Below the pieces are notes generated by a model. That model was not told where the DNA came from, did no database searches, and saw only the letters and a list, made by a program, of their open reading frames with translations. Of a stretch of DNA of 64,000 bases, positions 35,401-37,330 are shown in pieces. Every line of letters begins with the position of its first letter. Positions within the stretch are counted from its first letter, which is position 1. The position numbers and the translations under genes were made by a program. The stretch is taken from positions 186,001 to 250,000 of the forward strand of contig NZ_WNXX01000001.1 in assembly GCF_009733795.1 (NCBI RefSeq), read 5' to 3'. The stretch comes from Actinotalea caeni (GTDB lineage Bacteria > Actinomycetota > Actinomycetes > Actinomycetales > Beutenbergiaceae).

Positions 35401-35764
35401 GGTAGTCCGCCTCGCCCTTGCGCCCGGTCGCGAGGTGCGCGGTGGCGATCGCGCGCGAGAGGCGCTTGTACCCCTCGGCCCCGCGGGCGAGCACGAGCAG
35501 GTGCTCGCCCGCAGGGTCGGGCATCCCGGTGGGCCGCATCGGGGAGTCGAGGCTGAGCTCGGCGCCGAACACGCTCGGCAGCCCCAGGCCGCGTGCCGCC
35601 TCGGCGAAGCGCACGACGCCGTAGAGCCCGTCGTGGTCGGTGAGCGCGAGCCCGGACAGACCCCGGCCGACCGCCTCCACCACGAGCTCCTCGGGCTGGC
35701 TGGCGCCGTCGAGGAAGCTGAACGCCGAGTGCGCGTGCAGCTCGGCGTACCCGGGGGTGGTCAT
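32480..35764 (-). CDS. dnaE2: Error-prone DNA polymerase DnaE2 (ImuC)
   Basis: This 1094-residue C-family polymerase is the usual size for DnaE2. A PHP domain opens the protein ([21 protein letters not shown]). The catalytic acidic cluster is [19 protein letters not shown], and QGRGSAANS plus [14 protein letters not shown] belong to the palm. A helix-hairpin-helix and an OB-fold follow ([29 protein letters not shown]). It works with ImuA' and ImuB in DNA-damage-induced translesion synthesis. The ATG overlaps the stop of the upstream HNH gene (ATGA). It is therefore expressed from the SOS-boxed promoter ahead of that gene rather than from its own. Confidence 0.96.
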   Translation of the reverse strand: [1094 protein letters not shown]

Positions 35765-37293
35765 GCCGCCCGCCAGCGGGAGAGCACCTCGGCGAGCACG
35801 GCCTCCGACGGCGAGGGCTCGGGGTCGGGGGCGGCTCGCAGGTGCAGCCCCACCGCGGGTCTGTCCCCCGCACCCGGGCCCGGCGCCCCTCGCGCGAGCC
35901 GACCGCCCGGCAGAGCGGGCGCGTCGCCGACGTAGCGGTGACCGGTGGGGGTCCGGGTGACCACCCGGTGCGTCGCGCCCGGGCCCGTCTGCGCCGCGGC
36001 CGACCACCCGGGCGCCTGCTTGGCGTAGTTGTGCGCCTCGCACAGCGCCTGCAGGTTGTCGTGACGGGTGGCACCGCCCTCGGCGACCGCGGTGACGTGG
36101 TCGACGTGCCGTGCCGGGGCGTCGCACCACGGCATCCGGCACGAACCGCCGTCGCGCAGGCGGACCAGGTCGGCCAGCCCGGGCGGCACCGCTCGCGAGC
36201 GCGCGTCCATCCCGACCAGCGCCCCGCTGCGCGGAGCCCGGTACAGACGTCGTACGAACGCTCCCGCCGCGCCTCCGTCACCCTCTGCACCTGGCCCGCG
36301 TCGCCCGCCGGCCTCGCTGCCCGCACGTGCGGCGGCGTCGGCGACGATCCGTCGTGCGACATCGGCCGGGACCGGCCCGTACCCGGGCAGCCACCCGGGC
36401 TCGTCGCCGCCGTGGAACAGGGTCGTGTCGGTCATGACGAGATCGACGAGCACGCCGGGCGGGGCACCCTCCTCGGCGCCGGTGACACGCGCGACCAGCG
36501 CATCGGCCATCACCTGGCCGCGCGAGCGCTCGTCACCAGCCGCGCGTGCGGCGGCGGCCCGCTCGGTGAGCGCGCGGTAGGCGGCCACGCCCTCGGCGAC
36601 CGGCAGCAGCGCCGTCAGGTAGGCCATCGCATCGGGCGCGGGCCGCAGCGTCACCCGACGCTCCTGCGCCGCGCGCCCCTGGCGCCGCACCACGGCGGCC
36701 GGGTCCTCGCGACTCGCCCACGCGCGGGCAGCCGCCCCCACGGCGCGGTCGCCGAGCCCGCTCAGCACCGCGGGGTCGCCGCAGAGGTCCGCATCGAGCC
36801 GGCGCCGGTCGGCACCCTCGAGGCAGTCGGACTCCTTGACCAGCAGCATCGCCCGCCACGGCGTCAGCCGGCCCGCGGCCAGCCCGGCGAGCGTGTGCGG
36901 CATCTGCGTGCACAGCGCACGTGCGAACCCCAGGAAGGCGCGACCGCGGTAGGCGGACTCCTGGCGCGCCAGGCCCACCTCGGCACCGACGCCGCGCCCG
37001 CGACGCTGCGCGGGCACCCCCGCAGCGGCCTCCTGCGCGCGCCGGACACGGTCCAGCTGCACGGCCGCACGCGCCGACACCGCCTCGGCGGCCGCCACCA
37101 GTGCGGCGGCCGCGCTCATCAGCTCGACGAGCGAGGTCCCGGGGTCGGCGTCGCCTGCCACCAGCGTGCTCGTGGCCGCGCGACCGAGCACGGACGCCTG
37201 CTGGCGCATCCCCGCCACCAGCTCCTCCGGCGTGGGCACGGACGCGCCGAGCACGGTTGCCGCCGCACCCCCACCAGACGCTCGTTCGAACAT
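35761..37293 (-). CDS. DUF222 (13E12 repeat)/HNH endonuclease domain protein
   Basis: The N-terminal 330 residues are the Ala/Arg-rich helical DUF222 region (LVAAAEAVSARAAVQLDRVR; GLAAGRLTPWRAMLLVKES). The C-terminal HNH motif reads SCRMPWCDAPARHVDHVTAVAEGGATRHDNLQALCEAHN, with the expected His and Asn residues and CxxC/CxxH-like metal ligands. Proteins of this type are abundant in actinobacteria and of unknown role. I chose the ATG at 37293, where TATCCT lies seven bases upstream and a LexA box covers the start region. The coupling to dnaE2 makes it part of an SOS operon. Confidence 0.9.
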   Translation of the reverse strand: MFERASGGGAAATVLGASVPTPEELVAGMRQQASVLGRAATSTLVAGDADPGTSLVELMSAAAALVAAAEAVSARAAVQLDRVRRAQEAAAGVPAQRRGRGVGAEVGLARQESAYRGRAFLGFARALCTQMPHTLAGLAAGRLTPWRAMLLVKESDCLEGADRRRLDADLCGDPAVLSGLGDRAVGAAARAWASREDPAAVVRRQGRAAQERRVTLRPAPDAMAYLTALLPVAEGVAAYRALTERAAAARAAGDERSRGQVMADALVARVTGAEEGAPPGVLVDLVMTDTTLFHGGDEPGWLPGYGPVPADVARRIVADAAARAGSEAGGRRGPGAEGDGGAAGAFVRRLYRAPRSGALVGMDARSRAVPPGLADLVRLRDGGSCRMPWCDAPARHVDHVTAVAEGGATRHDNLQALCEAHNYAKQAPGWSAAAQTGPGATHRVVTRTPTGHRYVGDAPALPGGRLARGAPGPGAGDRPAVGLHLRAAPDPEPSPSEAVLAEVLSRWRAA

Positions 37294-37301
37294 GTGTACG
37301 A
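37286..37301. promoter_or_regulatory. LexA (SOS) box of the HNH-dnaE2 operon
   Basis: TCGAACATGTGTACGA matches the actinobacterial consensus TCGAAC-N4-GTTCGA at 11 of 12 specified positions. It begins in the -10 hexamer and runs past the start codon, where bound LexA would block transcription. Confidence 0.8.
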
Positions 37302-37330
37302 GGATAAACCTCGCCACCGACATCCGTCAC
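37301..37330 (-). promoter_or_regulatory. Promoter of the HNH-dnaE2 operon
   Basis: On the minus strand GTGACG (37325-37330) and TATCCT (37301-37306) are 18 bp apart. The message would start within a base or two of the ATG, so it is essentially leaderless. Confidence 0.6.

Follow-up and report, generated by a model that had tools for sequence, protein, structure and literature searches.

What does a gene for an HNH protein do at the head of an operon for an error-prone DNA polymerase? The question is raised by a stretch of 64,000 nucleotides of Actinotalea caeni (contig NZ_WNXX01000001.1, positions 186,001 to 250,000; hereafter the window), where a gene of the DUF222/HNH type directly precedes dnaE2 behind a predicted SOS operator. 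To our knowledge DUF222/HNH proteins are numerous in actinobacteria and have no known role; we take DUF222 and the 13E12 family to be equivalent. The locus is made up of the following predicted parts, in window coordinates:

32480..35764, minus strand: dnaE2, error-prone DNA polymerase III alpha homologue, 1094 aa (PRK05672)
35761..35764, minus strand: ATGA stop/start overlap of the HNH gene (TGA 35763-35761) and dnaE2 (ATG 35764-35762)
35761..37293, minus strand: DUF222/HNH-type protein, 510 aa (MFERASGG...), start ATG 37293-37291 within the LexA box
37301-37286, minus strand: LexA (SOS) box TCGTACACATGTTCGA, one mismatch from TCGAACN4GTTCGA
37301..37306, minus strand: -10 hexamer TATCCT, its final T common to the LexA box
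37315..37322, minus strand: TGTCGGTG, upstream half of a RecA-NDp (PafBC-type) motif, 8 bases before the -10

The two reading frames overlap by four bases, as the original prediction had stated, and the product of the second gene matches the NCBIfam model for error-prone DNA polymerase (PRK05672) with 1437 bits against a cut-off of 939. With the LexA box in front of them the proposed SOS-boxed HNH-dnaE2 operon is thus real at the sequence level, and the ATGA overlap suggests that dnaE2 translation would depend on translation of the HNH gene. A separate internal promoter for dnaE2 was also looked for. No further LexA-like site at up to two mismatches was present between 35501 and 37400, and a sequence scan between the HNH start region and dnaE2 found neither a sigma-70-like promoter nor a terminator, with the caveat that a GC-rich internal promoter within the HNH gene may escape such a scan.

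The family label given to the first gene held for its HNH half. The window protein matches Pfam HNH (PF01844) at E 1.6e-4, with 22.2 bits against a cut-off of 21.4, and shows no match to Pfam DUF222 (PF02720) even at E = 10. Among 12 close relatives DUF222 is matched by three (best 5e-12) and HNH by 11, and since some of them match both we regard the window protein as a divergent member of the DUF222/HNH type. Strict DUF222 membership was dropped for the window protein and retained for the wider family. The HNH residues H396, D398, H399 and N422 are invariant in A1, and the protein may be a nuclease. Its predicted structure (mean pLDDT 64, the HNH part mostly below 50) was too poor for a fold search. 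The open reading frame extends over 35761..37323 and the ATG at 37293, inside the LexA box, is usable as a start; the upstream ATG at 37323 could instead be the true start.

The region around this start codon is compact. Read on the minus strand from 37330 it runs GTGACGGA-TGTCGGTG-GCGAGGTT-TATCC-TCGTACAC-ATG-TTCGA, and the LexA box spans about -8 to +8, a stretch that includes the probable +1 as well as the HNH start codon, which bears out the earlier claim that the box covers both promoter and start. Upstream, TGTCGGTG-N8-TATCCT (37322-37301) is an exact match, in exact register, to TGTCRGTG-N8-TANNNT, which we take to be the RecA-NDp consensus and which was tried here against the recA, imuA' and uvrA promoters. 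As judged from these predicted sites the HNH promoter would be composite, made of a PafBC motif and a LexA box. Some 180 bp upstream of the promoter region (window 37470-37550) lie 9-bp tandem repeats resembling GCTGTGGGC/GCTGCGGGC.

Both patterns stand well above their controls in the genome. A scan of the 4.0 Mb for the LexA consensus at up to one mismatch returned 20 sites against three for a reversed-pattern control, and the RecA-NDp pattern at up to one mismatch gave 68 matches against 13 for its reversed control; the HNH promoter is one of only nine exact RecA-NDp sites. The same genome carries recA with a LexA box and an exact RecA-NDp site, uvrA with a LexA box and a RecA-NDp site with one mismatch, and a gene for LexA itself (TIGR00498, 2e-70). 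It also encodes tandem WYL proteins (C1:76479-77644) that are likely candidates for PafBC, as judged by their tandem position only. RecA-NDp was described as a LexA/RecA-independent damage promoter of mycobacteria (PMC2897130) and is activated by PafBC (PMC6789036; PMC8223512), and dual control by PafBC and LexA is known, for example for recA (PMC8223512). The HNH gene resembles such genes in having both motifs upstream. What sets it apart is the fusion of the motifs into one promoter, a box that extends over both +1 and the start codon, and the presence of dnaE2 as second gene.

The remainder of the mutasome is found about 17 kb away, in an imuA'-imuB operon (52314-54895):

52314..53921, minus strand: imuB-like gene, Y-family fold (PF00817, E 5e-10)
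53930..54796, minus strand: imuA'-like gene (mutasome accessory), homologue of the gene that precedes imuB in other mutasome operons
54818..54839 (C11:240818-240839), minus strand: exact RecA-NDp motif upstream of imuA'
54880..54895, minus strand: LexA box TAGAACATCCGTTCGA, upstream of imuA'-imuB

The imuA'-like gene has no Pfam match. The window thus holds the whole mutasome, split into two units. As in the known ImuA'-ImuB-DnaE2 system dnaE2, imuA' and imuB are all present with LexA boxes, but the window dnaE2 stands apart from imuA'-imuB and is headed by an HNH gene, whereas in other genera of the family imuA'-imuB-dnaE2 form one operon. The imuA'-imuB genes with their two sites, together with the PafBC/RecA-NDp element, the consequence of a start codon lying in its own operator and the M. 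tuberculosis precedent discussed below, had been missed by the original prediction, whose overall reading is upheld in part.

How the HNH gene came to stand before dnaE2 is suggested by the relatives. Thirteen relatives from the same family have a dnaE2 with its own LexA box and an ATG inside that box, at or just before the dnaE2 start, and 12 of these 13 are without TGTCRG. In the window's genome the body of dnaE2 is kept and its own LexA box is gone, and homology to a relative (G012) ends at the dnaE2 N-terminus, which places the HNH gene between the operator and dnaE2. In another pair the flank upstream of dnaE2 in G016 is the flank upstream of the HNH gene in G018, and the homology breakpoint of G018 falls at the LexA box. 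We consider it likely that an SOS-controlled HNH gene with its own operator was captured between a LexA-controlled start and the dnaE2 coding region. An HNH gene of an operator-carrying family would have been inserted at this point, and dnaE2, its own box lost, would since be transcribed behind the HNH gene as part of one HNH-dnaE2 mRNA.

Such an arrangement is not limited to one strain, a point that the original prediction had left to a survey. It was found in three of the 23 family genomes in which the start region of dnaE2 could be read, namely that of the window (G000), Pseudactinotalea terrae (G013) and a member of another genus (G018). The first two are collinear through the HNH gene and dnaE2 and have the upstream gene in common, and in the Ruania group the linked HNH copy is sister to dispersed copies; both observations are compatible with an ancestral HNH-dnaE2 operon that was repeatedly lost or rearranged, its linked copy being replaced by paralogues. 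We nevertheless think this unlikely, as dnaE2 is fused directly to its own box in most relatives and the starred branches of the tree, in which the three linked HNH copies do not form one clade, require the linked label to change three times. A single inherited linked HNH orthologue is unsupported for the same reason. The linked HNH copies of G000 and G013 were also compared for a mosaic 3' end common to both; no more than the last ~29 residues showed a slightly raised similarity, with 11 of 29 positions alike against 5/28 and 5/20 but 8/19 for L111. The HNH promoter of P. terrae is of the sigma-70 type (TTGACG), is without the PafBC motif, and has a nested ATG that runs into a stop, so that even members of one genus do not share the composite promoter.

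The scattered placement of the linked copies bears equally on a further explanation, to which we give a nearly even chance: DUF222/HNH genes may be mobile or selfish SOS-controlled elements whose linkage to dnaE2 reflects hitchhiking to a hospitable site under damage control, perhaps through recombination at the operator/start sequence common to both, and brings no benefit to mutagenesis. The family has up to 26 copies per genome and has been described with mobile-element features (PMC5005354); the lack of monophyly and the breakpoint at the LexA box of G018 would fit this view too. The exact ATGA overlap and the intact reading frames, on the other hand, suggest that coupling has been retained. 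Adjacency in one operon does not establish that the HNH protein takes part in mutagenesis or translesion synthesis. Such a role is unproven, and hitchhiking of a mobile element is at least as likely.

In favour of a functional partnership, HNH genes lie next to mutasome genes in at least three families (before dnaE2 in f1, and in genera g21 and g16). Three HNH genes of g21 are transcribed divergently from imuA'-imuB-dnaE2 and have a LexA box of their own, and three others are codirectional with imuA' and upstream of it; the six of g16 are found upstream of imuA' and in most cases are separated from it by a LexA box. In these two genera, which belong to two other families, an HNH gene flanks imuA'-imuB-dnaE2 in 12 of 27 genomes, where about 0.14 would be expected by chance for immediate neighbours given 2-13 HNH copies per genome; two of the 12 pairs (L234, L243) are separated by a gap of several hundred bases. 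Because the genomes share ancestry the 12 represent a handful of independent events, and the excess over chance is no more than suggestive. At three g21 loci (L227:3068-6145, L228:2966-6034 and L260:3691-6792) the divergent HNH gene and imuA' have their own LexA boxes about 150 bp apart.

From these data it could be argued that the HNH protein works together with the mutasome, that its cutting or binding feeds or limits synthesis by ImuA'-ImuB-DnaE2 and that co-expression was selected; the intact HNH residues would agree with this. Yet HNH subtypes and orientations vary, the LexA box between HNH and imuA' in g16 means that the two are not one LexA unit, and the link is missing from one of three Pseudactinotalea. 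Most family members are moreover found elsewhere: none of the best 80 in public genomes had a same-strand dnaE2 within a flank of up to 6 kb. We regard the partnership as rather improbable. Similar doubt attaches to the more general proposal that DUF222/HNH proteins are a nuclease component of damage-induced mutagenesis, repeatedly recruited to ImuA'-ImuB-DnaE2 operons with a compact nested promoter (PafBC motif, -10, LexA operator and start codon).

Returning to capture of an operator-carrying HNH gene as the likely origin of the locus, its control can be sketched as follows. PafBC would activate through the RecA-NDp motif, recruiting RNA polymerase at TGTCGGTG/TATCCT, and LexA would repress by covering about -8 to +8 until RecA-driven LexA cleavage frees that stretch, the damage signal arriving through both branches. 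As +1 coincides with the HNH ATG the mRNA, which would also carry dnaE2, is probably leaderless, and dnaE2 translation would restart at ATGA, probably in dependence on translation of the HNH gene. Placed second behind a composite promoter, dnaE2 would pass from LexA-only to PafBC-plus-LexA control, matching recA and imuA'-imuB of the same genome. Gene capture is in this way suggested to have rewired dnaE2, though the comparison of RecA-NDp motifs in HNH versus dnaE2-only promoters (p = 0.037) was based on small numbers. Of this scheme the sequence itself shows the parts, how they are spaced, the promoter pattern across the family and the rearrangement of the locus; the transcript start, binding by PafBC and LexA, coupling and any nuclease function are predictions.

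LexA control of DUF222/HNH genes is not new. In M. tuberculosis the 13E12 / DUF222-HNH genes Rv0515, Rv1702c, Rv3074 and Rv3776 belong to the LexA regulon (PMC5005354), and RecA was required for the induction of five putative HNH endonucleases by mitomycin C (PMC8151990). They resemble the window gene in encoding HNH-type proteins of the DUF222 kind under LexA control; they differ in that neither a dnaE2 operon nor the combination of nested start and PafBC motif was found described for them in the searched literature. The leaderless lexA of M. tuberculosis (PMC2897130) is likewise an SOS gene whose translation start is its transcription start, but for the HNH gene a leaderless start is only inferred, and its start codon is enclosed by the LexA box. 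In our search of the openly accessible literature DUF222, HNH endonuclease and SOS were not found together and no link of DUF222 to bacterial DNA damage was found. The HNH-dnaE2 operon, the nested arrangement of operator, start and PafBC motif, and the repeated adjacency to the mutasome appear to be new within that literature. An HNH protein encoded with a mutagenic polymerase would open a large and so far unexplained protein family to direct genetic study, with a mutagenesis phenotype that can be tested.

The nested start itself recurs across the HNH family. Among 94 loci, 36 non-redundant ones have a LexA box (up to two mismatches) that encloses an in-frame start codon; in an earlier count the start was nested in frame in 38 of 41 boxed loci, where chance would give one third (p 2e-15, relatedness ignored). 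TA is found at -13 from the nested start, the -10 position for a leaderless start, in 32 of the 38. TGTCRG stands at the exact RecA-NDp spacer in 15 of the 36 and at spacer 7 in three, and at none of the other spacings tested. A RecA-NDp-like motif was present in 26/94 promoter regions of the family against 2/94 coding controls (p about 5e-7). Members with a nested start come from Mycobacterium, Nocardioides, Georgenia, Pseudactinotalea and some Arthrobacter; since most Arthrobacter members are without a recognisable LexA box, not all of the family is under SOS control. Start codons within LexA operators are suggested to be common in actinobacterial SOS genes, which bears on gene-start annotation. 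The remaining DUF222/HNH genes of the window's genome (C3, C11:340k, C45 and a broken C1 copy) have TGTCRGTGGTCGCACGTATGTTC, with a LexA box overlapping the -10. At L109 (C1:50461) of this genome a composite RecA-NDp/LexA promoter precedes a DUF222/HNH-like frame that ends after 90 codons, probably a decayed HNH copy. Elsewhere in it, at L108 (C11:383727), a 160-aa gene starts (MFDNG...) at an ATG within a LexA box, and its product presumably resembles SAV_6107-type HEPN proteins.
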